DNA from: a virus
Virus record (IMG/VR): IMGVR_UViG_3300042731_006953
Location: 1-32,204 of that record
Strand: one strand, 5' to 3'
DNA length: 32,204 bases
This document shows, piece after piece, positions 3,901 to 32,204 of the stretch. The translations under genes were made by a program, and so were the position numbers. Positions within the stretch are counted from its first letter, which is position 1; each line of letters starts with the position of its first letter. The notes under the pieces are model-generated. The model made no database searches and was not told the DNA's origin. It worked only from the letters and a program-made list of their open reading frames with translations.

Positions 3901-5031
3901 GGTGTTGGAACGTTTGTGTCCTTCCCGGCCGAAGTGGTTCGAACATTAGGGAATTCACTTGCGCTAACGGCCAAGGAATTGAAGGATCCAGCGCTGCGTA
4001 GTATAGGCGCTCAGCGGCTTGCGGGCTTGGCAACCGCCGCAACGTCGGTATGGGGTGCAACGGTGGCATCCCGCCACATGAACGGCATAGACCGCGACAC
4101 GGACCAGGGCGTTCGGCGCTTCTTACCTAGCTGGTCGCAGAACAGCTCTCTGTTCTATCTGAACCGAAACGAAGACGGCAGGGCGCGGTTTGTTGATCTG
4201 AGTTACACCGATCCGTATTCGTACATACGCAAGCCTTTGATGGCGTTCATGCGTGGCGAAGATTGGAACGAAGCCGTTTTGCAGGCCGGTGCCGAAGCGG
4301 CAGAACCTTTTCTTTCCGAAGAGATTCTAGCCGGCAAAGTCTTCGACATTGTACGGAATCGGAAAAAGGATGGAGGCGAGGTTTTCAACCCAGAGGCCTC
4401 TTGGAACGAGCGAGCGCAGGCTATTGGGCTTCACATTCTAGACGCATTGGAGCCAGGTACAATCTCGAGCATGCAACGCATTTGGCGCGGAATTCGAGGT
4501 ACAACTACAGTGCACGGCCGCAGCTATGATCCCGTACTTGAGGCCAAAGCGGTGTTGACTGGATTTCGCATTCAGGAGCTGGACGTTCCGCAAGCCTTGT
4601 CGTGGAACGCTCGAAAGGCGCAGGGACGTATGGGGGATGCGCAGGCGATGTTGAGCAGCGTTGCAGGACGTGGAGGTTCTGTGGACGACGCTGAACTGGA
4701 AAACGCCTACCGTCAAAGCGAGACTTCAAGGCAGGAGATTTTTGAGGGATTGGTCCAGGATGTGGCGGCGGCGCGGAATCTTGGTATGAACAACAGGGAT
4801 ATTCACGATGTGCTGCGTAGCGTCGGGATGTCGAACGACCAAGCTACCGAGGTCATGAACGGTAGTTACCTGCCGTACCGTCCAGGCGATCAATTTCTCG
4901 AACGGAAGGCGAGGGCGGTAGCTAGTACCGCGAATCCTGAGGAACGGCGCGGACTCATACGTGATTACCGTCTTAGGCGCCAGCGTGTACAACAAATGGC
5001 TGATAGCGCCAGGGCCACGCGGAGGCGATAG
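997..5031 (+). CDS. Large virion / DNA-ejection-type protein (1344 aa)
   Basis: This is the longest gene of the window. Its N-terminus has a tandem motif, RFAKYREN-D then RFAKYREQD (residues 6-22), of the kind often seen at the start of phage ejection or polyvalent proteins. Residues of about 100-220 are Gly/Ala-rich and hydrophobic and could interact with membranes. Residues 270-340 are acidic and coiled-coil-like. The long central part is helical, and about 960-1080 has a segment (FVSFPAEVVRTLGNSLAL, then SYTDPYSYIRKPL) that resembles C-terminal domains of phage large polyvalent proteins. I see no lysozyme, ADP-ribosyltransferase or nuclease motif. The C-terminus is strongly basic (ends ATRRR), fitting DNA contact. 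It starts with a one-base overlap on the upstream gene and ends in TAGTG, overlapping the next start. Role as internal or ejected protein is inferred from size and position. Confidence 0.65.
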   Translation: MPDQDRFAKYRENDRFAKYREQDEPGLLRRVADVGSTVFQAVADPIGFTARQVIPKAPDILRQTGRGLAESGYATAIGTTQLVGADEFAENLREGRESAREFYGAPESGVGAVAGTAARMAGDVAQFMAPGSAIARFAKPATTLGKVGLEVATGAPLDAAIAASGREESLAGMAADITGSETLGQIAESPFGRAAVDVAVGAGIGGSLAAAGARGGRSATRTADDIASTRRVIDEPTGVGRFEKYTEPSTDVVVRAEPAQEPSVVQVATDAVEVGTQPKALDRLQSLHREMRQVEREGEQVSDELFDEFEVAFEERLDRIQNEMDKVKKDVYEQDGPEAHASLLDAFDEWIEHKEGSVQGIGGDQSVWDTDTPEFPTTVDETREALADPNIVIDETGPSDALESRVPALESASTQDPIEGIERQVRAEERPALGTETAQPEAVDDVQGRSGFDEYLADMTERGDAVGMAGGGEAGYVNPTAVGKGIKAFIRRNFTSAGDLPKKVFDRMIRRDGGVNSLQREVAYTLRDFRRTAREVYGTANLSSEQLEQIDTALKGESSVVPEEMRSVVAKMRNDIDDMSRRLIDAGAIDSELVPAVTDNLGLYATRSYQVFDDPKWAEKVLSKHPDVARKVWHLLENENPNLPREEIEGLFKALLERGEDSPLALIQQGKLGSKDLSIVTRRKDIDPAIRALWGEYHDPRVNYARSMTKMAHLLENHKFLQDVRSEGLGQFFFETPISREGVDYVQQFAAEGSKTLEPLNGLYTTREIADAFERVVESSPAPDWLRAYFGVNSAVKFSKTIGSLMTHVRNTVGNVGFAVANGHWRVDKMGEAAKTVWGDLWDVGLKDKAKWREIYRELVDLGVVHESARAGELRDAIADAISDSDTLVGGLPQRVAKKTLRGAQNVYRAEDDVWKVYAYHNEYSRYKKQLPDMPEDELKRHVAAIVRDTYPTYSLVPYGVKMARRFPGVGTFVSFPAEVVRTLGNSLALTAKELKDPALRSIGAQRLAGLATAATSVWGATVASRHMNGIDRDTDQGVRRFLPSWSQNSSLFYLNRNEDGRARFVDLSYTDPYSYIRKPLMAFMRGEDWNEAVLQAGAEAAEPFLSEEILAGKVFDIVRNRKKDGGEVFNPEASWNERAQAIGLHILDALEPGTISSMQRIWRGIRGTTTVHGRSYDPVLEAKAVLTGFRIQELDVPQALSWNARKAQGRMGDAQAMLSSVAGRGGSVDDAELENAYRQSETSRQEIFEGLVQDVAAARNLGMNNRDIHDVLRSVGMSNDQATEVMNGSYLPYRPGDQFLERKARAVASTANPEERRGLIRDYRLRRQRVQQMADSARATRRR

Positions 5032-5456
5032 TGTCTGATCTGTCGTTGATGTCTTTCGGTGTGTGGGGACTTCAAAGCGCGGTCGAGCAGATGGAAGCCT
5101 GGGGTATCAGCCGTGAGGCCCTGGCGTTCTTCGGGGCGTATATCACTTTGCTGGGTCAGGGATTCCGGCATCGAGCGAAATCGAAAGACGAGATTGGGAA
5201 AGCAACGGAGCGAATTGCTGCGTTGGAGTCGACCGTTACGTCGCATGTCAGCATCACGCCTCAGACGGAGTCGATCATAACGAGAATCAACCGAAGCGCC
5301 GACGAGACGCGCCGTGAGTTCAGGGACCAGCACGAGGATCTGTGCAATCGAATGCAGGGAATGCTGACGCGAGTGGAGACCGACTACCGCGACCTGGACG
5401 GTCGAGTTCGTGTAGTCGAGCAGGCGCAGGCCGTAAACGACCAGGGGCGGCCATGA
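5031..5456 (+). CDS. Small protein with hydrophobic helix and coiled coil (141 aa)
   Basis: The GTG start overlaps the previous stop (TAGTG), with GGAGGCG just upstream as ribosome site. The N-terminal third has one hydrophobic helix (about residues 28-45, ALAFFGAYITLLGQGF). The rest is a charged helical region with heptad spacing (about 50-135). This layout of one membrane anchor plus a periplasm-sized coiled coil is common for spanins or holin-associated proteins, but there is no diagnostic motif. It is followed at once (ATGA overlap) by a two-helix membrane protein, which makes a lysis cassette plausible. No endolysin is adjacent. Confidence 0.6.
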   Translation: MSDLSLMSFGVWGLQSAVEQMEAWGISREALAFFGAYITLLGQGFRHRAKSKDEIGKATERIAALESTVTSHVSITPQTESIITRINRSADETRREFRDQHEDLCNRMQGMLTRVETDYRDLDGRVRVVEQAQAVNDQGRP

Positions 5457-5713
5457 GCACCCAGCAGATCCTCGCCCAAGGCGTCAAAGACGACCTAAAG
5501 CCACAGAGTCCGGAACATAGAGTTCGGCTTATCGGTGCCGCATTCGTGTCGGGTCTCGGTGGTTTCGATATCGTCATCAGTCGTTTTTTTCGCGACCAGC
5601 CGTGGTCGTGGGAATCGCTGATTCTTGTTCTGTTCGGTGTCGGCATCGTCTTCACTGGCACGATCATCAAACTCGCCAAGGCGCTTTTGCCATGGGTGCG
5701 TAACGGTGTTTGA
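5453..5713 (+). CDS. Holin-like small membrane protein (86 aa)
   Basis: The ATG overlaps the previous TGA (ATGA). Two hydrophobic stretches are visible, about residues 25-42 (IGAAFVSGLGGFDIVI) and about 53-78 (LILVLFGVGIVFTGTIIKLA), with a short polar turn between them and a basic C-terminus. Size, two helices and location behind the virion genes fit a class II holin, but holins share little sequence and the assignment rests on topology and context. The preceding helix-plus-coiled-coil gene and the following single-helix gene may belong to the same lysis unit. Confidence 0.6.
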   Translation: MSTQQILAQGVKDDLKPQSPEHRVRLIGAAFVSGLGGFDIVISRFFRDQPWSWESLILVLFGVGIVFTGTIIKLAKALLPWVRNGV

Positions 5714-5927
5714 CGGATTCGCGCCCACAATTCCAATTGCGGCCTCGATCGGGGCCGCTTTTCTTGGTGGGCTAGGTCTCGGGATCTTTGTGGTGCTATG
5801 CTTTTTCGAAGTGAAACGGGTGCCAGCGAGCGCAAAGCTTGGCGCCAATTCGAAGCGTTTGCGACATCACGCGCATCCGGCTCCACGTCGTGTTTCACGT
5901 GGAACATCAACCGCAGTAACGACTTAG
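5706..5927 (+). CDS. Small single-helix membrane protein (73 aa)
   Basis: The GTG start lies eight bases inside the holin-like gene. Residues of about 9-34 form a Gly/Ala-rich transmembrane helix, followed by a basic Arg/His-rich tail. No strong ribosome site is visible, so expression would depend on coupling. The last third of the reading frame contains the parS-like 16-mer at 5891-5906, so its C-terminal codons may be constrained by that site and not by protein function. Possible third member of the lysis cassette. Confidence 0.5.
   Translation: MFDGFAPTIPIAASIGAAFLGGLGLGIFVVLCFFEVKRVPASAKLGANSKRLRHHAHPAPRRVSRGTSTAVTT
5891..5906. promoter_or_regulatory. parS-like ParB binding site
   Basis: The sequence reads TGTTTCACGTGGAACA; its reverse complement is TGTTCCACGTGAAACA, a full match to the chromosomal parS consensus TGTTNCACGTGAAACA bound by ParB/Spo0J. 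It sits at the junction of the late genes and the replication operon, 55 bases before the -35 box of the strongest promoter in the window. No ParA or ParB gene is visible here. It could recruit host ParB or a ParB encoded elsewhere in the phage. Confidence 0.7.
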
Positions 5928-5960: not shown

Positions 5961-5990
5961 TTGACAATTCATACTAAAACACCATATACT
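5961..5990 (+). promoter_or_regulatory. Sigma70-type promoter for the replication operon
   Basis: A consensus -35 box TTGACA (5961-5966) is separated by 18 bases from TATACT (5985-5990). The surrounding 100 bases are AT-rich compared with the genes on either side. The expected start is near 5997, about 34 bases before the excisionase-like gene. This is the clearest promoter in the window and lies in its only sizeable gap between 1 and 13 kb. Confidence 0.75.
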
Positions 5991-6030
5991 CAACAACGTT
6001 TGACATTAAACCGCACGATGGAGTTTGCGC

Positions 6031-6243
6031 ATGGCACAGGAATCTCATGTCAACGCCGATCCTATACTGACGGCTACTGAAGCGGCTGAATACCTACGGT
6101 TGGAATCGACGCAGACGATCTACAACATGGTTGCTCGTGGGGAGTTGCCGCGAACAAAAGTCGGCCGCCAACTTCTGTTTCGCCAGTCGACGCTTGATGC
6201 TCTAGTCGACGCCAAGCTTCCTGTGACACCACAGGACGGGTAG
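6031..6243 (+). CDS. Excisionase-family helix-turn-helix DNA-binding protein (70 aa)
   Basis: The protein has the layout of the excisionase/MerR-like HTH_17 family: LTATEAAEYLRL (first helices), then TIYNMVARGELPRTKVGRQLLFRQSTLDALV (recognition helix, wing and final helix). Such proteins bind DNA as excisionases or as small transcription regulators. The ATG at 6031 is chosen because GGAG lies seven bases upstream; a TTG two codons earlier is possible. It is the first gene behind the strong promoter and heads the recombination/replication operon. There is no integrase nearby, so a regulator role is as likely as excision. Confidence 0.75.
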   Translation: MAQESHVNADPILTATEAAEYLRLESTQTIYNMVARGELPRTKVGRQLLFRQSTLDALVDAKLPVTPQDG

Positions 6244-6844: not shown

Positions 6845-7798
6845 GTGACGCTTACAGCAGAGCAGTTAGAGATGCGGAAAGGGGGCGTCTGTGCCTCCGA
6901 GATGGCCGCGATTATGGGGGTGCATCCGCACCAGAACGCTGTCGATGTCTTCTTGGAGAAGACAGGCAAGGCTGAGCCGTTCGAGGGCAACGAATTCACG
7001 TACTGGGGCACCGTGTTGGAACCCGCCATCGCTCAGCGGTATGCTGAGGAGAACGGCGTCGAACTCGTTGAGAGCGATACGTTGGTGCATCCGAAGCATC
7101 CCTGGCTGATGGCAACTCCCGACCGGATCGTGAAGGTTGACCCGGGCCGCGGACTGGAGTGCAAGAATCGTGGTGCGTACAACGTGGATGCCTGGGGCAA
7201 TCCTGGGTCCGACGAGGTGCCCGACGAAGTCGCGATTCAGTGCCACACCAACATGGAAGTCACAAAACTTCCGCGCTGGGATGCTGCCGTTCTCGTCGGG
7301 GGTAACAACTGGCAGTCTTTCGTCCTGGAGTACGACAAAGAGATTGCCGAAGCGATCGTCGACGCCGCTCACGACTTTTGGTTCAATTACGTTCAGGCTA
7401 ATATCTGTCCCGAATTGGATGGTTCGGAATCCAGCACCAACTACGTCGCCCGGAAGTGGAAGACGCACAACGATCTTCTGGTTCCTGCCACTCCGGAAAT
7501 CGCTGCGACTGCCGAGGAGTTGCGTGAGATCCGCGCTCTCCTGAAGGAACACGAGGAGGACGAGGAGCGGCTGAAAAACCTCCTCAAAGATTTCATTGGC
7601 GACCAGGCAGGGGTCAGCCTACCCACCGGCAAGAACATCACCTGGAAGCGTCCCAAGCCACGTCGGAAAACGAAATGGGAAGCGCTTGCCAAAGCTCTTC
7701 AGGGTCACGTCTCGAAGGATGTTTGGGACGATCTGTTGAATACCCACACCGAAGAACAGCAGACCGCGCGTCGGTTCCTCTATCCCCGCAACTGGTAG
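6845..7798 (+). CDS. YqaJ-type phage recombination exonuclease (317 aa)
   Basis: This belongs to the YqaJ/lambda-exonuclease group of PD-(D/E)XK nucleases, which resect double-stranded ends 5' to 3' so that an annealing protein can load. The visible order of motifs fits: GGVCASEMAAIMG near residues 13-25, WGTVLEP (Glu59), ATPDR (Asp93), LECKN (Glu105-x-Lys107) and a following Gln132. The C-terminal third is helical and charged, with a basic patch (KRPKPRRKTK) near 270-280. The GTG start follows AAGGAG with normal spacing. The next gene is the likely annealing partner, matching the usual exonuclease/annealase pairing. Confidence 0.88.
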   Translation: MTLTAEQLEMRKGGVCASEMAAIMGVHPHQNAVDVFLEKTGKAEPFEGNEFTYWGTVLEPAIAQRYAEENGVELVESDTLVHPKHPWLMATPDRIVKVDPGRGLECKNRGAYNVDAWGNPGSDEVPDEVAIQCHTNMEVTKLPRWDAAVLVGGNNWQSFVLEYDKEIAEAIVDAAHDFWFNYVQANICPELDGSESSTNYVARKWKTHNDLLVPATPEIAATAEELREIRALLKEHEEDEERLKNLLKDFIGDQAGVSLPTGKNITWKRPKPRRKTKWEALAKALQGHVSKDVWDDLLNTHTEEQQTARRFLYPRNW

Positions 7799-7808
7799 GA
7801 GAACATCA

Positions 7809-8933
7809 ATGACGGTACCACCCGAAGTAGGCACTATGTCCGAATCGACCGACTTGGTGCCGAAACAGTCAGAAGCTGTAGTCGAAACCAGTGCCACGGC
7901 CGTGGCGGCTCGAGAGAAAGCTGCCGTTGAAGCCAGATTCGTTATGGCGATGAATCGGCCGCGGAATCCTGAGGTCGCCCGTCAGAGCATCCTCAAAGCC
8001 TGTCAGCGTCCACGGTTTGCCGAGTCGGCGATGTATTCGAAACCAGTTGGTGGGCGGGCAATCACCGGCCTGTCCGTTCGGTTTGCAGAGGAAGTGTCAC
8101 GTCTCTGGGGCAACATCCTCATCCAGTCTACCATCACGTTCGATGATCGTGAGCGTCGAATGTACAAGGTGGTTGCGACGGACCTCGAAACCAACACGGC
8201 GCACGACCAAGACGTAGTGGTCGAAAAGTTTGTCGAGCGTCGAAAGATCAAGGATGGCGACGAGGTAATCAGCAGCCGGCAGAACAAGAACGGCCAGACA
8301 GTCTACCTGAAAGCCGCCACTGACGACGAGATCTTGAACAAGTGCAATGCGGCGCTGTCGAAGGCGAAACGCAACCTCGCACTTACTCTCATTCCATCTG
8401 ACATTCGCGAAGAAGCCGAAGAGACGATCATTGCGACCGTCAGGGATCGAGACGCCAAGGATCCGGACGGTGCTCGAAAGAAGCTGTTGGACTCGTTTTT
8501 CCAGCTGGGCGTATCGGCGGATCAGGTGCAGGCGTTGATCGGTAAGCCGTTGCAGCAACTGAACCCGGCTGAGATCCAGTGGCTTCGGGGTGCCTACACC
8601 GCACTGAAGGATGGCGAAGCCTCGTGGGCCGATATCGCGAGCGAGCCCGCATTCAACCGTGGCAGTGAGAAGAAGAAGGAAGAGGGCGACGGCAAGAAAG
8701 GCTCGGCCGGTTTGAAGCAGCGGGTCGCCAAGAAGGCCGACGGAAAGAAGGCGGCCAAGAAGAAGGACGACACGCCAAAGGCCGCCAATGAGGCCGGCAA
8801 CGAACCCCAGCCAGAGAAAGCCAAGGAACTCACCGAGGAACAGGCGGAAGCCGCGGCAATTGCGGATGTCGAGGATGACGAAGAGGCACGGATCCGGGCC
8901 GAAGAAGAGCAGATGGCGCTGGAGGACAAATGA
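7809..8933 (+). CDS. Probable phage recombination (DNA-annealing) protein next to YqaJ (374 aa)
   Basis: A globular region (about residues 38-280) carries the segment RFVMAMNRPRNPEVARQ followed by RPRFAESAMYSKPVGG and SVRFAEEVSRLWGNI. I know this layout from a widespread phage family encoded next to YqaJ or other exonucleases. Its synteny suggests a RecT/Erf-like single-strand annealing role, but I cannot confirm the fold. Residues from about 283 on form a low-complexity tail of Lys, Ala and Glu, first basic (KKADGKKAAKKK) and then acidic, like the flexible tails of ssDNA-binding proteins. TAGGAGAA lies before the ATG at 7809. It ends in ATGA with the next gene. Confidence 0.65.
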   Translation: MTVPPEVGTMSESTDLVPKQSEAVVETSATAVAAREKAAVEARFVMAMNRPRNPEVARQSILKACQRPRFAESAMYSKPVGGRAITGLSVRFAEEVSRLWGNILIQSTITFDDRERRMYKVVATDLETNTAHDQDVVVEKFVERRKIKDGDEVISSRQNKNGQTVYLKAATDDEILNKCNAALSKAKRNLALTLIPSDIREEAEETIIATVRDRDAKDPDGARKKLLDSFFQLGVSADQVQALIGKPLQQLNPAEIQWLRGAYTALKDGEASWADIASEPAFNRGSEKKKEEGDGKKGSAGLKQRVAKKADGKKAAKKKDDTPKAANEAGNEPQPEKAKELTEEQAEAAAIADVEDDEEARIRAEEEQMALEDK

Positions 8934-9241
8934 GCCAGTCCCTAGACAGGATGACTCGCCTTATTGAGATGATCGAATCGGCCCGCAAAACGTTGGCGGC
9001 ATTCGAACGAGAATCCCAGATTATCGAAGCAAACGTCGACCAGTGGGTCCGTGAAAAGAAGCACTTGTCGCGGTTTGCTAGTGGTCGGCAGTACGAGATC
9101 GAAGTCGAGTGTGTTTGTGGCAACAAGGACACAATCGGCTTCACCAGACCGAAGTGCTCTGGCGGCTGTGAACGTCTGATGATCCCGATCGGGGTCCTGA
9201 CGTTCGAAGAAGCATGCGGGCAGAAGTTTTACTCGAAATAG
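8930..9241 (+). CDS. Hypothetical protein with zinc-finger-like Cys cluster (103 aa)
   Basis: The N-terminal 50 residues are helical. The C-terminal half has a possible four-cysteine zinc site, CVCG at about 61-64 and KCSGGCE at about 75-81. The family is not known to me. It is coupled to the annealing-protein gene by ATGA and is followed after 38 bases by the SMC-like ATPase, so it probably acts in DNA processing. Confidence 0.6.
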   Translation: MSQSLDRMTRLIEMIESARKTLAAFERESQIIEANVDQWVREKKHLSRFASGRQYEIEVECVCGNKDTIGFTRPKCSGGCERLMIPIGVLTFEEACGQKFYSK

Positions 9242-9279
9242 GTCAAAGCCCGCGACGGTTACATAACACTGGAGAACAA

Positions 9280-10557
9280 ATGAGCGACGGTATCCATATT
9301 GCCTCTGTCGAGGTCCAGAATTTCCATCGGTTGTCGGTTGCCGAGGTCGAGAACGTTCCGGAAACGGGACTGGTTAGAGTCACGGGCAGGAACGCATCGG
9401 GCAAGACAAGCTTGCTTCGGTCGATCGCCGCAGCCTTGGGCGGTGCCGGCGAGATGTTGCCCGACGCGATCCGTGAGGGCGCCGACGGGGCGTCAGTCTC
9501 TCTCACGCTCACCACCGGATTCACGGTTCAGCGCAAGGTCACCGAGAGCAACCCCAAGGGCTATCTGACGGTTGAGGGGCCGGACGGTGGCAAGTTCAAG
9601 CAGGGGAAACTCAGTGAGTGGCTGGGTGAGCGTTCGTTCGACCCCCTGTCGTTCTTTTCTCTCAAGCCAGATCGGATGCGCGAGGTCTTGTTGTCGCTCA
9701 GTACCGATTCGGAGTTGCCGCAGAAGCTCGCGGATCTTCGGGCAGAGCAACAACGGATCTATGACGAGAGAACTCCGTGGATAGCCCAGGAACGGCGCGC
9801 AAAGCAGGTCAGGAAGCCCGAAGGTATACGACTCCCCCCAGTAGACACCTCTGCCGAGATGGAGCGCCTGACGGCCCTGCAGGAGCAACAGCAGGCCCGG
9901 GAGGAGTGCCATGAATTGGCGCTTGATCGCCTCACAAAAATTCGGTCAACACGCGCCACCATCGACAAACTGCAAGCCGAGATCAATACAATGGAGTCGG
10001 ATATCAAACGGTGGTTTGCCGAACAGAAAGAAGCGTCTCGGCGTCTCGAAAACGAACTGCCAGATGTCGCAGCAGACATCCGCGCCGTAAAAGATCGGAT
10101 CGCTAAGGCCGACACGATCAATGTGCAGCTGGAGCCCTGGAAGGAATGGGACCGCGCGAGAGCCAACGCCAAAGAGGCGGGCGCAGAAACGCAGAAACTC
10201 AGCAAGGCGATCGACCAGGCGAAAGCCAGCGAAAAAGACCTGCTACAGAACGCCGGCATTCCGGTACCCAGTCTGTCGTTCGACATGGAAACCGGCGAGC
10301 CCATGCTTAACGGTCATCCCCTCTCCGGTGCCAGCGGCAAAGAACGCATCGACATGGCCGTCAGCGTGGCGATGGCAGCGAACCCCGAACTCCGGATCTG
10401 TTTGGTAGACGAAGCGCATGCGTTGGATGACGAGTCCATGGAGGCTCTTCATGATCGTGCGGTCGCTCATGGTTTTCAGATCTGGGTGGCTCGTATCAGT
10501 AACCAGGGTGGTTGTGAGATCGTGGTTGAGGATGGCGTAGCGAAGGAATCTGAGTAG
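9280..10557 (+). CDS. SbcC/RecF-like AAA ATPase, mini-SMC (425 aa)
   Basis: The domains follow the SMC/Rad50/RecF plan. The N-terminus has a Walker A motif GRNASGKT (residues 36-43) after the typical VEVQNFHRL strand. The centre (about 170-330) is a coiled coil. The C-terminus has an ABC-type signature-like LSGASGKERID (about 348-358) and Walker B LVDEAHALDDE (about 375-385). Such phage ATPases cooperate with nucleases in DNA end processing or replication. GGAGAACAA precedes the ATG at 9280. At 425 aa it is far shorter than cellular SbcC, with only a short coiled-coil arm. It lies three bases before the next gene. Confidence 0.85.
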   Translation: MSDGIHIASVEVQNFHRLSVAEVENVPETGLVRVTGRNASGKTSLLRSIAAALGGAGEMLPDAIREGADGASVSLTLTTGFTVQRKVTESNPKGYLTVEGPDGGKFKQGKLSEWLGERSFDPLSFFSLKPDRMREVLLSLSTDSELPQKLADLRAEQQRIYDERTPWIAQERRAKQVRKPEGIRLPPVDTSAEMERLTALQEQQQAREECHELALDRLTKIRSTRATIDKLQAEINTMESDIKRWFAEQKEASRRLENELPDVAADIRAVKDRIAKADTINVQLEPWKEWDRARANAKEAGAETQKLSKAIDQAKASEKDLLQNAGIPVPSLSFDMETGEPMLNGHPLSGASGKERIDMAVSVAMAANPELRICLVDEAHALDDESMEALHDRAVAHGFQIWVARISNQGGCEIVVEDGVAKESE

Positions 10558-10560
10558 CCG

Positions 10561-10923
10561 GTGGCCACATTCACGCCCGTTCCGAAGGCGGACCTGAAGG
10601 ACCCGGCCTTTCTCGAGCATTGCCGCGAGCTCTGTCGGCTATGGCGAGTCCCGTGCTTCATCAGCGGAGTACGGGACGGAACGATTGTTCCCCACCACGT
10701 ACGCCCAAAGGCGGTCTGGGGCGACAAGAACAACGTCGTGTTTCTCAGTTCGGCCTACCACGTCGAGCGCAACGACTCCGCACATCGTCTCGGTAGCTAC
10801 ATCGCATTTGACGCAAAACATGGTTGCGATCTCGTCGCCGAGGCGTTTCGGATCTACCAGGAGTATCTGCGAATTTACCGACCCAAAGGAGAAGACAGTG
10901 AAGGTATCAATACCGACGGTTGA
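10561..10923 (+). CDS. HNH/DUF968-like putative nuclease (120 aa)
   Basis: The core reads IVPHHVRPKAVWGDKNNVVFLSSAYHVERNDSAH in several pieces: PHHVR (about residue 43), DKNNVVFLS and a later HVE with a second His. This order of His-His, Asn and His resembles HNH-type and DUF968/Ref-like phage nucleases that cut at recombination intermediates. The zinc-binding Cys pairs of classical HNH proteins are absent. The GTG starts three bases after the ATPase stop. Function is inferred from this pattern and from its place between the SMC-like ATPase and the replication genes. Confidence 0.5.
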   Translation: MATFTPVPKADLKDPAFLEHCRELCRLWRVPCFISGVRDGTIVPHHVRPKAVWGDKNNVVFLSSAYHVERNDSAHRLGSYIAFDAKHGCDLVAEAFRIYQEYLRIYRPKGEDSEGINTDG

Positions 10924-11101
10924 GGTGAACGCCAATCAGTTGATCGCGATCGGCAACGGAGAAATTGCAACCCGGTTGCGGGTTCGGGGCTGGATTGAGG
11001 GTGTCATTCAGAAGGCGCTGGAAGATGTTGTGCCAGAGTATCATAGGGCGCAACTCGCGAAACACGAGGAACGCGACGACGACCTACCGGAAGGGATCTG
11101 A
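10898..11101 (+). CDS. Hypothetical small protein (67 aa)
   Basis: A GTG at 10898 follows AAAGGAGAAG, a strong ribosome site, and overlaps the end of the previous gene by 26 bases. The protein has a short beta-like start (KVSIPTVEVNANQLIAIG) and an amphipathic helix, and ends with an acidic tail (EERDDDLPEGI). Not recognised. Confidence 0.6.
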   Translation: MKVSIPTVEVNANQLIAIGNGEIATRLRVRGWIEGVIQKALEDVVPEYHRAQLAKHEERDDDLPEGI

Positions 11102-11111
11102 GGTATTCGGT

Positions 11112-11273
11112 ATGGCAACCAAAGTTCTAGACAACGAGTCGGCGTACTGGATGGCTCACAAACTAGAGGGATGCGCGAGCAACAACAAGCGCAAAGTGGT
11201 GCTTAGTAAATCCGAGGCGTTGCGAATAGCCGCAACGCTACGACGACTCATTGCGATCCGAACCGACAAGTGA
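11112..11273 (+). CDS. Hypothetical small basic protein (53 aa)
   Basis: A short Lys/Arg-rich protein with two predicted helices (ESAYWMAHKLEG and SEALRIAATLRRLIAI). There is only a weak GAGG ribosome site upstream of the ATG. It lies between the 67-aa gene and the replication initiator, one base before the latter's GTG. Possibly a DNA-binding accessory; no family recognised. Confidence 0.5.
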   Translation: MATKVLDNESAYWMAHKLEGCASNNKRKVVLSKSEALRIAATLRRLIAIRTDK

Positions 11274-11274
11274 C

Positions 11275-12033
11275 GTGCGCGGAGGCTATCTCCCTGCTTG
11301 GCGAAAGATCTTTGATCCATCTCATCCCCTTCATCCATCGAGTACGGGGGAGCCTGCGTGTCGTGCGTTCGCCTGGTTGGACATGTGCAGCATGGCACGG
11401 TTTGAGGACGGAGACTTTCTCAAACGCGGCCAACTATACGGCAGCATCCGGACATTTGCGAAGCGTTGGAACTGGTCGCGCAGTAAGGCGGCTCGCGTGC
11501 TAAAAGAATGGGTGTCAGCAGAGCAAATTGCGGTCAAAACCGTGACGCAAAGTCGGGACAGTCGGCGGGACAGTTATCTGCAAAAACCGGGACAGTCACC
11601 TAGTGTCATAACTATATGCAACTACGACACTTACAACCCGCAGTCCGATGAAGGTGGGACAGTTGGTGGCGAATTGTGGGACGGTTCGTGTTCAAATCGT
11701 GGGACAAGAAGAAGAAATAAGAATGGTGATAAAGAGTATATGGCGGAATTTGAGGTTGTTTGGAAGGCATGGAAGGGGCGTCCCAACAACAACAAGAAGG
11801 CCGCATTCAAAGCGTACAAGGCTCGGCGTCGGAGTGGTGTATCGGCCGAAGACTTAAAGGCGGGAGTGGTACGCTACTACAAGTACCTCAGGGAACAGGG
11901 AAAGCTTGGCACGGAATTCATGAAGACAGCTGCGGCATTTTTTGGACCGAACGAGCATTGGAAGGATAAGTACAACGAGGAACGCAAGGCACAGCCGGAT
12001 CTTCCGTTACTCAATGCCGGAGCGGGTAAATGA
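11275..12033 (+). CDS. Phage replication initiator / helicase-loader-type winged-helix protein (252 aa)
   Basis: The N-terminus (GGYLPAWRKIF, then FAWLDMCSMARF, then GSIRTFAKRWNWSRSKAARVLKEW, about residues 2-85) is the winged-helix domain typical of phage replisome organisers. The middle (about 95-150) is Ser/Arg/Gly-rich and likely disordered. The C-terminus (FEVVWKAWKGRPNNNKKAAFKAY ... FMKTAAAFFGPNEHWKDKY, in pieces) is the helical domain that follows in O/DnaD-like proteins. It should bind the origin and recruit the helicase encoded next. I choose GTG 11275, directly after the previous stop; a TTG at 11251 would add eight residues. The stop overlaps the helicase ATG. Confidence 0.72.
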   Translation: MRGGYLPAWRKIFDPSHPLHPSSTGEPACRAFAWLDMCSMARFEDGDFLKRGQLYGSIRTFAKRWNWSRSKAARVLKEWVSAEQIAVKTVTQSRDSRRDSYLQKPGQSPSVITICNYDTYNPQSDEGGTVGGELWDGSCSNRGTRRRNKNGDKEYMAEFEVVWKAWKGRPNNNKKAAFKAYKARRRSGVSAEDLKAGVVRYYKYLREQGKLGTEFMKTAAAFFGPNEHWKDKYNEERKAQPDLPLLNAGAGK

Positions 12034-12932
12034 GCGATACTGACAGCTTACTTCGTCCCGTTGGCGAACAAACCCTGTACGGGATGTTCAACCGCAACTC
12101 GATGCCCGTCGAAGCGGTACCCACGATGTTGCCGACCTGGAACCAGATGTGTCGGGATGAAGGTGGGGGGGTCGGCCTTGCTCATGGGTGGCATGTCATC
12201 GTTGCCGGCAAGACTGGATCTGGCAAGTCGTTGTTCGGGCTCAATCTTGCAGCCGCCGCAATGAAGAAGAAATACCCGGTTGGGTTCATCTCGCTTGAGA
12301 TGTCGCGTACACAACTGGTGACGCGAGCGCTGTCGATCGTGTCTGGCGAGCGGGTGTCGCGGCTGGAGCCCGGGCCGGACTATGACCAAGAGGTGTTTCA
12401 GCAAGCAGCGCAGCGATGGGTAGACACCGTCGAGAACAAGTTGTTCGTCAACAAGGTCCCGATCCATTCACTTGGCGATATCGAGACGGCGATGGTTCGC
12501 GCATACGAGCAAGACTATGTGCGGTGCTTCATCACTGACTACCTCCAACTCGCCTGGGTGTCGGACGCAAAGGGGCTCCAAGACCAGATAACCGAAGTCT
12601 CCCATAAAATCCGCGGATTGGCTCAGAAGTATCAGCTAGTGTCGATCGGGCTCAGCCAGTACAACCGTGAAACATCGAAGTCGAAAGACCGGCCTGAGGC
12701 GACAGGGTTGATGGGTGGGTCGAGCCTCGAAAACGATGCCGACCAGGTGGTTCTGCTCGACCACACCACGTTCAAGAAGACATCCAAAACCTCGGCAACC
12801 CAAGAGGTGTTGTTGGCCAAGAATCGTCACGGTTCCAAAGGGCGGATCGCCGTGGCTTGGGACTTCACGACCCTGCGGGTCACCGAACTTCAGGAGGGCG
12901 CCGCAGATGACGAAGACGATGCGCCTTTCTGA
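12030..12932 (+). CDS. DnaB-type replicative helicase, ATPase domain only (300 aa)
   Basis: The RecA-like motor of DnaB is clear: Walker A AGKTGSGKS (residues 59-67), the LEMSRTQLVTRALSIVSG motif (about 89-106), Walker B FITDYLQL (Asp170), the SQYNRE motif and the GSSLENDADQVVLLD segment near the end. DnaB proteins are usually near 450 aa; the N-terminal domain that touches primase and loader is missing and replaced by about 50 residues. Such short forms occur in phages. The stop region is acidic (ADDEDDAPF). ATGA couples it to the initiator, and the HNH gene begins inside its last 26 bases. Confidence 0.85.
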   Translation: MSDTDSLLRPVGEQTLYGMFNRNSMPVEAVPTMLPTWNQMCRDEGGGVGLAHGWHVIVAGKTGSGKSLFGLNLAAAAMKKKYPVGFISLEMSRTQLVTRALSIVSGERVSRLEPGPDYDQEVFQQAAQRWVDTVENKLFVNKVPIHSLGDIETAMVRAYEQDYVRCFITDYLQLAWVSDAKGLQDQITEVSHKIRGLAQKYQLVSIGLSQYNRETSKSKDRPEATGLMGGSSLENDADQVVLLDHTTFKKTSKTSATQEVLLAKNRHGSKGRIAVAWDFTTLRVTELQEGAADDEDDAPF

Positions 12933-13263
12933 GTATCACGCCTACCTGCGCTCGCCGGAGTGGGAAGCCAAGAAGCTGAAGATGTTCCAGCTGCGCGGCC
13001 GGCACTGCGAGCGATGTGGCAGCCGGAAGGACATTGAGGTCCACCACAAGACATATAAGCGTCTTGGCCGAGAGCGGTACGAGGACCTGGAAGTGTTGTG
13101 CGGCTACTGCCACGGTCTCGAGGGTGGGTATGAGCGGTTGCACGACGAGCGTGTCGGTGATATCCAGCGGCTGAACGAGAACGATTTCGCACGAGTACTG
13201 AAACGAGTGTTGGTTCGTTCTGACCAGGCGCTCATCGAAGACGCGCAGATGGTAGACGACTGA
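12907..13263 (+). CDS. HNH endonuclease (118 aa)
   Basis: The zinc-supported HNH motif is complete: CERCG (Cys34, Cys37), IEVHHK (His46-His47), then [10 protein letters not shown] (Cys65, Cys68, His69). AGGAGG lies nine bases before the ATG at 12907, which fixes the start although it overlaps the helicase by 26 bases. It may be a free-standing nuclease acting in replication, packaging or superinfection exclusion. Its place directly behind the helicase suggests DNA metabolism; HNH genes are also frequent mobile passengers in phages. Confidence 0.82.
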
Positions 13264-13277
13264 TGCCCCGAGTCCGG

Positions 13278-13314
13278 TACCGTCCGACCGAAAGGAAAAG
13301 AACGTGAGCATTGA
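13278..13314 (+). repeat. Start-region direct repeat, upstream copy
   Basis: TACCGTCCGACCG (13278-13290), a 13-base insert with AAAGGAAAAG as ribosome site, then GTGAGCATTGA (13304-13314). The same two blocks recur fused at 13900-13922, so the pentapeptide gene is bracketed by duplicated start regions. Confidence 0.7.
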
Positions 13315-13894
13315 AATACTGAACCGCTGGACAAAAGCGGTCCTATATAAGAGCGAGGACGCGCAAGACATACGGGCTGCGGTAGTCGCGGCTGTGAACC
13401 GTGGCGCGAATCTCCGTGACGCGGATCTCCGTGACGCGGATCTCCGTGGCGCGAATCTCCGTGACGCGAATCTCCGTGACGCGGATCTCCGTGACGCGAA
13501 TCTCCGTGACGCGGATCTCCGTGACGCGAATCTCCGTGGCGCGGATCTCCGTGACGCGAATCTCCGTGGCGCGGATCTCCGTGGCTTCCAAATCCCACAC
13601 GGCGAACTCGTGGTGTGGAAGAAGGTGCAAGACAAGCTCGTACGGCTACGCATTCCGGAAAAGGCGCGGCGCACCGCGTGTTTTGTGAATCGCAAGTGTC
13701 GAGCCGAGTTCGCCGTAGTGGAATGGATTGAAGACGGCGGCCCGGTGATGAGTGACGGCATGGGAAGTGGTGCGCCGACAACATACGCTGTTGGCGAAGA
13801 GGTACGGCCTGACAAGTATGACGACGACGTGCGGGTCGATTGTTCTCACGGCATACACTTTTTTTTGACGCGTGAAGAGGCGCGGGCGTGGTGA
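13304..13894 (+). CDS. Pentapeptide-repeat protein with DUF5758-like C-terminus (196 aa)
   Basis: The first 33 residues form a short alpha/beta lead ([15 protein letters not shown]). Twelve perfect pentapeptides of the form A-(N/D)-L-R-(D/G) follow (about residues 35-94), enough for a three-coil right-handed quadrilateral beta-helix. The C-terminal 100 residues (from [14 protein letters not shown] to [14 protein letters not shown]) match the domain usually attached to phage and bacterial pentapeptide proteins (DUF5758). Some pentapeptide proteins mimic DNA and inhibit gyrase; whether this one does is unknown, and the short helix makes it uncertain. AAAGGAAAAG precedes the GTG. The repeats are almost identical at DNA level. 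Confidence 0.85.
13406..13585 (+). repeat. Twelve tandem 15-bp units encoding pentapeptides
   Basis: Twelve units of the type GCG(A/G)ATCTCCGTG(A/G)C run without interruption. Only two bases per unit vary, giving Asn or Asp at one position and Asp or Gly at another. The uniform synonymous positions indicate recent expansion by slippage or unequal recombination. Confidence 0.9.
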
Positions 13895-16408: not shown

Positions 16409-17009
16409 CAAAGAACGATTGAACATCGAAAATGACTTGCGACAGTGCCCGTACATTGTACCGGCCAATGGCTGTGCCTGCTCGAATTACGAACACGCAG
16501 CGGAGTGGTTTGTTGAGCGCGGCTACCGTCGCTCCGGGGAGTGCGTGAGTGTGGACCGGCACTGTGGTACGTGCCGGCACCACGGCGAACTTAGTAAAGA
16601 TGGCCAACACACGTATGAGTGTTTACAGCCCATAGACGTAACATGCGTCAACTGGAACAAATGGGACAGCCAAGGAACCTCCGGCTCCCCCGAGGACGAG
16701 GGGGAACTGGTACAAACGCTTGATTCCATCCTTGCCGATTGGGAGAGGTTCGGAGAAATGAACGGCTACGATCAGGCACCGTGGATTGTCAAGGGACTGC
16801 GGGATAGTGGGTTCTGTGTGATCGACACCGCCGAACTCGCGGCGCTGAAGGAGAGGGTGAGAAAGCTTGAGTCGGTACGACGAGTGCCGTTAACGGCGCG
16901 AGTGTTTGGCCCTGCCGCCGACAACGCAAGACGGCAGAGAGAAGAGGCGCAGATGGAAGAGGCGTCGAAAAAACTCGCCGCGCTCGACAAGGAGGAAGGC
17001 TGTGAGTGA
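16401..17009 (+). CDS. Cys-rich hypothetical protein with C-terminal coiled coil (202 aa)
   Basis: The ATG at 16401 follows GGAGGGCGG. The first 90 residues hold many Cys and His in pairs (CACSNYEH; HCGTCRHHGE; YECLQPIDVTCVNW), likely a zinc-binding module that recurs in phage proteins. The middle is acidic. Residues 150-202 are helical and charged (LAALKERVRKLE ... RRQREEAQMEEASKKLAAL). Not recognised as a named family. Confidence 0.6.
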   Translation: MDDKERLNIENDLRQCPYIVPANGCACSNYEHAAEWFVERGYRRSGECVSVDRHCGTCRHHGELSKDGQHTYECLQPIDVTCVNWNKWDSQGTSGSPEDEGELVQTLDSILADWERFGEMNGYDQAPWIVKGLRDSGFCVIDTAELAALKERVRKLESVRRVPLTARVFGPAADNARRQREEAQMEEASKKLAALDKEEGCE

Positions 17010-24003: not shown

Positions 24004-24046
24004 GCCTAGCCGGGGCATTGCAGCCCCGGGCGACTGGGGGCTAGGC
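24004..24046 (-). other. Nested inverted repeat between two leftward genes
   Basis: Outer arms GCCTAGCC (24004-24011) and GGCTAGGC (24039-24046) are perfect inverse complements. Inside, CCGGGGC (24010-24016) and GCCCCGG (24023-24029) form a second stem with a six-base loop. The structure covers the stop codon of the LPD29-type gene and precedes GACCGAACC element 2. Only three T follow, so a classical terminator is doubtful. Confidence 0.55.
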
Positions 24047-24550
24047 GGTTGCTGCGGCGCGTTCGGGCTCGGGTAGTAGGTGCCACAGCGTTGCCGTGCG
24101 GTCCTCGCCAAGCGTTCGGATGATGGCGTAGGGGTGGGCGTAGCCTCCGCCTGCTCTGCGTGGCCAGTCGGGTTCATTGCGTGCAATGTTCTCCGGAGTC
24201 AGGAACGGCGCGAGCTCGGGGTGTTTCTTGATCGCCTCGGCCGCAATGCGGGCTGTGAATTGGTCGGAGTATTCCCGGTCTACGATGACGCCCTGTAGGC
24301 CGTAGCATCCCTCGGGCAACTCGTGGCCGGTACGGTGGTAGCTGTCGTCCATGCCGTCGAACTGGCTTGACTGGAAGCTGTAGCAGGCTGCTTCGACGTT
24401 CGCCTGGCTCGGCCCGTCGGTGTAACTGACGCCCGCCCAGCCGTAGGCTGTGCCGCGGTGCCGGCGCACGCTGAACTTGATGGCCGGCCATCGCTTTTTG
24501 AGTTCGCGCCGGAGGTGCGGGAGTATATCGGATGCGTCGCGCTTAGGCAT
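24041..24550 (-). CDS. LPD29-type protein (169 aa)
   Basis: The N-terminal 100 residues match the large polyvalent protein-associated domain 29: an initial helix (ILPHLRRELKKRWP), KFSVRRHRG, WAGVSYTDGPSQANVEAACYSF in pieces, then SQFDGMDDSY. Stand-alone LPD29 proteins occur in phages and mobile elements and probably act on entry or host contact; the biochemical role is unknown. The C-terminal part has a Pro/Arg/Gly loop (NEPDWPRRAGGGYAHPYAIIR). ATG 24550 follows GGGAGGTG and overlaps the upstream gene by eight bases. Confidence 0.7.
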   Translation of the reverse strand: MPKRDASDILPHLRRELKKRWPAIKFSVRRHRGTAYGWAGVSYTDGPSQANVEAACYSFQSSQFDGMDDSYHRTGHELPEGCYGLQGVIVDREYSDQFTARIAAEAIKKHPELAPFLTPENIARNEPDWPRRAGGGYAHPYAIIRTLGEDRTATLWHLLPEPERAAATA

Positions 24551-24983
24551 GCTGCACCTCCCGGCTTTCGTCCTTCGCCAGGTCGCCGCGCAGGATTGCA
24601 ACAACGTCGAACGCGCCGCTGTCGTTCGTCGGGATTCGTTGCCCGTTGTCGATCCGGGCAAGAACGTCTATGGCTGCGTCGTCGAAGTGCCGACCGGGAC
24701 AGACGCGCGCCAACTGGATTAGCGCCAGCGCTGCCCGGTGCGCCTTGAACCAGTTCGCCCATTGCCGGGGTCGGTGTTCGTCCTCGTAGGGTCGGGGGGC
24801 AACTCCGGGCTGCGGTACGTGTTGGGTATCCGGTAGCGGTATCTCGCCGGCAAAGTAGCGGGCTTGGTAGTGTGGGCTAGTCCCGGTGATCTCGCACTCA
24901 CTCCAGCGGCGAGATTCCTGGAAGCTTTCGAGCGTCGGGAACCGTGTGCTCTTGACCCAGAATATTCCTTGTGGTGTCTCCAT
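24543..24983 (-). CDS. Hypothetical protein (146 aa)
   Basis: The start METPQGIFWVKSTRFPTLES suggests a beta-rich N-terminus. A Pro-rich middle is followed by a helical segment (WANWFKAHRAALALIQLARV) and another helix. The family is not recognised. GAGAGGGATG with a GAG-rich leader lies before the ATG, and GACCGAACC element 3 is 22 bases upstream. Coupled to the LPD29-type gene. Confidence 0.6.
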   Translation of the reverse strand: METPQGIFWVKSTRFPTLESFQESRRWSECEITGTSPHYQARYFAGEIPLPDTQHVPQPGVAPRPYEDEHRPRQWANWFKAHRAALALIQLARVCPGRHFDDAAIDVLARIDNGQRIPTNDSGAFDVVAILRGDLAKDESREVQHA

Positions 24984-31915: not shown

Positions 31916-32204
31916 ATGATCCGAGTTCAGATAGACGAGTGGTTGCATCACGACGACATGTTTGATCGTGAGCCGAAGGCGGAGGATCCGAACGGTCCTC
32001 GAACGAGTCCGGGCCGGATGATGCACTCGCGCACGTTGCTGTTGCAGGACTTCGAGCATCTGGAGGTCGCGCCTGTTGTGGCGTTTCTGAACGGTTTGGT
32101 GGCGCCGCCGTTGTGCCGGTGCGGGCATTCGAAGGAGATGCACACGGGTGGATGCTCAGCGTGGGATCCTGGTGGTTTCGGTACCTGCGACTGCAAGGAG
32201 TACC
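31916..32204 (+). CDS. Partial gene with zinc site, cut by the right edge
   Basis: AAGAAGGGATAG lies before the ATG. The 96 codons visible contain LCRCGHSKEMHTGGC and FGTCDCKEY, a Cys/His zinc-binding pattern common in small phage proteins. The reading frame is open at the window end, so length and family remain unknown. Confidence 0.6.
   Translation, partial: MIRVQIDEWLHHDDMFDREPKAEDPNGPRTSPGRMMHSRTLLLQDFEHLEVAPVVAFLNGLVAPPLCRCGHSKEMHTGGCSAWDPGGFGTCDCKEY

Follow-up and report, generated by a model that had tools for sequence, protein, structure and literature searches.

A chromosomal-type parS site in a phage genome without detectable ParA or ParB: recurrence among viral contigs and possible recruitment of host ParB

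The question raised by this locus is what a centromere site of the bacterial chromosomal type does in a phage genome that contains no recognizable partition genes. A sequence-only reading of the window (the whole stretch of DNA analyzed, 32,204 nucleotides) had pointed out a full-consensus parS site at 5891-5906, and this site is real. The minus strand, TGTTCCACGTGAAACA, matches the consensus TGTTNCACGTGAAACA with 0 mismatches and the plus strand, TGTTTCACGTGGAACA, with one, the site being a 16-bp palindrome; the rest of the window contains one match only, at 3 mismatches. Seven sequences fit the consensus when both strands are considered; for these, Markov models (orders 0 to 4) gave an expectation of 3e-5 to 7e-5 sites (about 5e-5) in the window, which upholds the earlier claim that the site is not expected by chance in 32 kb, and of 6e-5 to 1.4e-4 in the 67.9-kb contig that contains the window.

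The same reading placed the site between the late genes and the replication promoter, and this placement is plausible, with one caveat. A sigma70-like promoter on the plus strand (TTGACA-18 bp-TATACT, 5961-5990; 11 of 12 matches, a consensus match alone) lies 54 bp downstream of the site, but a doubtful 73-aa frame with a GTG start (5706-5927, plus strand) overlaps it. This frame shares 8 bases with the preceding frame and has no PHROG match, and the base composition of its second half is not gene-like. Near its start, a terminator-like hairpin with a T-rich tail behind it (5739-5758, plus strand) could possibly mark the end of late transcription; the hairpin is weak, one having been found against a mean of 0.9 in shuffled sequences. 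As the second half of the frame does not resemble coding sequence and the weak hairpin lies near its start, the site could well be located between genes. Cumulative GC skew of the containing contig was also considered as an indication of a replication origin near the site, and was rejected as it shows no turn there.

Upstream of the site, the plus strand carries an ORF for a 141-aa late protein (5031-5456), which has no Pfam or PHROG match and is possibly part of a lysis cassette, and a putative small hydrophobic late protein of 86 aa (5453-5713), holin-like by appearance only and likewise lacking a PHROG match. Downstream, the first early gene (6025-6243, plus strand) encodes a 72-aa helix-turn-helix protein (Pfam HTH_17, 1.7e-13; PHROG excisionase/regulator, 5.2e-8), and a further early gene (6845-7798, plus strand) encodes a YqaJ-family recombinase/exonuclease (Pfam YqaJ, 9.5e-32). 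Elsewhere in the window, a pentapeptide-repeat protein with DUF5758 is encoded in the early region (13304-13894), and a protein with an LPD29 "large polyvalent protein associated" domain, 72% identical in the related genome G002, is encoded on the minus strand (24041-24661; 4311-4931 of locus L007).

The window lies within a 67,917-bp IMG/VR contig (G001), to which it is identical at 32204/32204 positions. This contig has a 126-bp terminal repeat, ending 18 bases short of the contig end, and the genome is hence close to complete. It contains a single parS, with the next closest sequences 4 of 16 bases away from the full palindrome, and encodes a terminase, a major head protein, YqaJ and a DnaB-like helicase. 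The observation that the window carries no ParA or ParB gene was found to hold beyond it, as profile searches of the contig detected neither ParB_N (PF02195) nor AAA_31 (PF13614; ParA), and the tyrosine integrase family PF00589 was absent as well. Of the 155 candidate frames with 70 aa or more at about 20 to 57 kb of the contig, 89 were scanned against Pfam, the others being mostly overlapping opposite-strand frames and frames scanned earlier; ParA, ParB and integrase were not among the 25 of 35 families listed for this region, which were ordered by members and then E-value, the other ten being weaker than about 0.004. The Pfam/PHROG scan of the late region covered part of its proteins. Two proteins of the contig match HTH_3/HTH_31, the one located being a Cro/C1-type HTH gene. 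Unlike the usual chromosomal parS, this site does not lie on a replicon with detected ParA/ParB, and the presence of a host-type parS in a phage lacking detectable ParAB is well supported at the sequence level. Among named phages, there was no nucleotide match to the region and no capsid match (tblastn), while the terminase matched 92 records, every one below 60% identity (tblastn). A host search with the terminase and a 746-aa late protein returned no relatives among genome contigs; we infer that the site is of the type used by this phage's own host.

Relatives of the phage were collected by searches with the terminase and the same 746-aa late protein, which is portal-like by position only and has no PHROG match. 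A pattern search with up to 2 mismatches showed the site in 2 of 17 related records, namely G001 and G103, and a search of ten records with up to 3 mismatches showed none in the short records G108 and G109. Of the five long genomes of the group, the same two have a full-consensus parS, in positions that differ between them; G002, G112 and G118 are without the site, which is thus dispensable. Terminal repeats were present in G001, G002, G112 and G118, and none was seen in G103 (52 kb). The latter is a diverged relative (terminase ∼49% and 746-aa late protein ∼57% identical; GC 67.5%), and its site, TGTTTCACGTGCAACA, is a full consensus with another central base, located between two minus-strand frames elsewhere in the genome. 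The Markov expectation for this second site was 0.9e-5 to 2e-5. AAA_31 and ParB_N were absent from all five long genomes, and G103 showed one sub-threshold PF00589 match. In the nearest relative, G002 (YqaJ 71% identical), the best place is 3 mismatches from the consensus; YqaJ and the next gene are kept there, and no recognizable homologs of the small genes adjoining the site were found. Conservation of the 16-mer in close relatives, named in the sequence-only reading as a check, therefore gave a mixed answer: the site is missing in G002, but the flanking genes are unrecognizable there too, and a full-consensus site is present elsewhere in G103. Judged from these genomes, the site is gained or lost among relatives and is not fixed to one place.

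The recurrence of the site was evaluated across IMG/VR. The pattern TGTTYCACGTGRAACA was found in at least 120 stretches, as was the exact 16-mer of the window, against 10 and 29 stretches (complete counts) for two control permutations of the same composition with the CACGTG core kept. The exact 16-mer occurs in 30 of the 120 contigs of the TGTTYCACGTGRAACA scan (at least 120 in all), and parS-bearing stretches are in truth probably several times more numerous. Among the largest ORFs from 90 of these 120 parS loci were matches to portal (13), head-tail adaptor (7) and several terminase PHROGs (5 or 6 each), in a tally with overlapping counts and one ORF per locus that covers parS loci and not control loci; many of the parS neighborhoods are hence viral. 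These viral genes around the sites make host contamination a weaker explanation of the excess; single contigs may still be host, and the excess could include some host DNA. ParB_N, counted at E up to 0.001, was found in 8 of 141 parS-bearing records (3/50, 2/41 and 3/50; 7 over the family cut-off) and in 0 of 9 control-motif records, the scan having left out 29 of the 120 first-scan contigs and 40 of the 90 new second-scan loci; as many of the records are fragments, absence of ParB_N in them is not proof. The parS sites lay outside ORFs in 61/147 and 32/106 cases and the control sites in 11/29 and 2/10, and a non-coding bias was dropped as a sign of function since the control palindromes show the same bias. 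Of 210 parS loci, 50 formed one protein-sharing group, the remainder falling into small groups or none.

A cultured phage is also concerned. Eight named phages from the wider kinship were examined, and in one of them, Pelagibacter phage HTVC027P (L397), a parS-like site, CGTTTCACGTGAAACA, is present at 16412-16427, with one outer mismatch and between convergent genes. Neither ParB_N nor an annotated integrase or partition gene was found in HTVC027P, which is described as obligately lytic and devoid of lysogeny-associated genes (PMC12753301). The sequence-only reading had suggested segregation of an extrachromosomal prophage as one purpose of the site. For the phage of the window, this suggestion fits the lack of a detected integrase and the Cro/C1-type HTH gene, but it cannot be the general reason, or the sole one, since an obligately lytic pelagiphage has a near-consensus site.

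Across most bacteria, the protein family known to share the parS site is ParB, and loading of host ParB is for that reason the economical reading of the site. Recruitment of host ParB, as already proposed from the sequence alone, is the best reading and is partly supported; it starts from the sequence of the site, the lack of detectable ParA, ParB and tyrosine integrase, the recurrence in a relative and the excess over control motifs, and it would account for them by ParB binding and a benefit to the phage. In its fuller form, the site would be a borrowed centromere, a genuine chromosomal-type parS that loads host ParB clamps onto unintegrated phage DNA, and we consider the chances of this to be slightly better than even. 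Host ParB would enter the phage DNA at the 16-mer as a CTP clamp and spread from there, and the phage genome would be tethered, condensed or positioned via the host ParB, ParA and SMC apparatus; if the phage persists unintegrated, its genome would be segregated by these proteins too. As the position of the site varies among relatives, the benefit is likely to act on the whole DNA molecule rather than on one promoter. For this phage taken by itself, the benefit may be segregation or positioning, silencing or titration; segregation, silencing and titration were the three purposes offered by the sequence-only reading.

The position of the site was further analyzed in a sample of terminase loci. 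The terminase in many loci of the 50-locus group is related to a cultured pelagiphage terminase, and the sample consisted of the best 80 of at least 600 loci fetched by that terminase; it is biased, the 13 query terminases having been taken from parS-bearing contigs. The site was present in 17 of these best 80 loci (18 sites in 505,518 bases) and each of three control motifs in 0/80; at 90% identity the loci form 77 clusters, with the site in 17/77. The parS scans had already turned up ten of the 17 carriers, and with these 10 contigs excluded the site remained in 7 of 70 loci (443,996 bases). When these 70 loci were compared with the full palindrome, the closest match was perfect in 5 loci and had 2-3 mismatches in a further 5; for a control palindrome, it had 2-3 mismatches in 9 loci and was perfect in none. 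Of the 70 loci, 56 have at least 250 bases upstream of the terminase, and immediately before the terminase the best match was perfect in 3 of these and differed at 4 or more positions in the other 53. Eleven of the 17 carriers, diverged phage contigs (L306, L307, L308, L309, L318, L327, L331, L333, L336, L337 and L342), have the site 33-154 bp upstream of the terminase match start, with two sites in a row in L318; in the other six it lies more than 1 kb from that start. The flanks of the 11 upstream sites were 0.31 and 0.27 identical, about like unrelated DNA. A near-identical site within unlike flanks was withdrawn as a conservation footprint, as the loci had been selected as matches; the 0.99 site identity among the 11 loci arises by construction, and 7 of the 11 were known from the parS scans. 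What stands is the site in 7 of 70 loci not previously known, against none for the control motifs.

These positions bear on another proposal, a silencer or timing switch that depends on ParB: host ParB would nucleate by the early promoter, and its spreading would repress transcription until the phage replicates or titrates ParB. The consensus-like promoter downstream of the site in the window and, in another lineage, the 11 sites closely preceding the terminase match are in its favor, and ParB is reported to repress genes adjacent to parS3 and parS4 in Pseudomonas aeruginosa (PMC5521831). However, the position is not kept, the site of G103 and those of six terminase loci lying elsewhere, and the nearest relative retains YqaJ and the following gene without the site. 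A silencer is considered unlikely, if the most probable of the alternatives.

Arrays of the site were observed in a few records. In L188 (IMGVR_UViG_3300037518_000322, 116,662 bp), 12 parS sites occur at 8906-13878, over 5 kb of small genes within one 13.9-kb stretch; 11 of the 12 are the exact 16-mer of the window in a single orientation, each after A and nearly all before T. Five parS sites each, within ∼1 kb, are present in L043 (2657-3444) and L096 (10535-11462), which have a distantly related terminase-like gene. No ParB_N was detected in these three records. To judge from such arrays, the sites may serve in some phages to titrate ParB or as operators. A decoy function, in which host ParB is titrated and host chromosome segregation or SMC loading upset to the gain of the phage, would agree with ParB_N-free arrays and, requiring no lysogeny, with the near-consensus site in an obligately lytic phage. 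Against this, the phage of the window has one site, as do the stretches examined for 103 of the 120 first-scan loci (at least 120 in all), and a single site would be a weak sponge before phage DNA replication. We regard a decoy function as quite improbable for this phage.

The site could alternatively be an operator of another phage or host DNA-binding protein, the match to parS being coincidental. The phage does encode HTH proteins (HTH_17 and HTH_3), and the 11 non-palindromic sites of L188, in one orientation within a gene-dense stretch, look operator-like. A phage-specific repressor would not, however, explain the same 16-mer in many viral contigs, of which one group accounts for 50 of 210 loci and the others belong to small groups or none, and this explanation appears very doubtful. 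Least probable by our estimate, and barely credible, is a chance match or neutral host-DNA debris, for although three long relatives lack the site and millions of viral contigs guarantee some perfect matches, as the control motifs show, the expectations computed independently for the window and for G103 and the collection-wide excess over control motifs argue against it.

Beyond this phage, recruitment of host ParB through a host centromere site carried without partition genes may be a widespread viral strategy that includes obligately lytic phages, a proposal to which we assign a little less than an even chance. Drafted onto viral DNA in the course of a lytic infection, host ParB would place, condense or protect that DNA or disturb the host chromosome. 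If so, bacterial centromeres would be a common target of viral mimicry. So far, the ParB-parS system has been studied as a device by which bacteria segregate their own DNA; if parS is carried by many phages, and by lytic ones among them, infection would have to be counted in ParB biology (foci, SMC loading and silencing), and parS would offer a handle on the location of phage DNA in the cell. The question could be put to the test in an existing cultured pair, HTVC027P with its SAR11 host.

Sites of this kind can be compared with several known systems. The SGI1 genomic island carries parS mimics that are bound by the ParB of its helper IncC plasmid (PMC10954446). The phage resembles SGI1 in being a mobile element without detected ParAB that bears the parS of another replicon; unlike here, SGI1 uses a plasmid ParABS with binding demonstrated, whereas the present element is a phage with a host-chromosome-type site known from its sequence. 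RedRock-type phages encode both parA and parB, and in RedRock each parS locus consists of repeated copies of an 8-bp motif in an array (PMC7157519). In the proposed view, the present phage would share with them a centromere for an extrachromosomal genome, but it differs from RedRock- and P1-type ParABS phage-plasmids in having a single chromosomal-type 16-mer and no ParA or ParB found in the phage. With regard to the extrachromosomal prophage state of such phage-plasmids, G001 lacks PF00589 and has an HTH_3 gene, and no lysogen is known. With bacterial chromosomal parS, the site shares the same kind of 16-bp palindrome; those sites are normally located on the parAB-encoding replicon, unlike the site of this phage without parAB. 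In P. aeruginosa, any one of four oriC-proximal parS sites suffices for the role of parABS, and a single ectopic parS opposite oriC is insufficient for accurate segregation (PMC4368675). Phage-encoded ParB is treated in a survey of ParB-like proteins from 2025, and ParB-less phages with parS are not mentioned in the part covered (PMC12704722). The open-access literature searched contained no report of chromosomal-type parS in phages without ParB, a mention in the parS survey of Livny et al. (2007) being possible. Mimicry of the parS of another replicon, as in SGI1 and IncC, and phages with their own ParABS are thus already known; what would appear to be new, within the literature searched, is a chromosomal-type parS on a phage without ParB.
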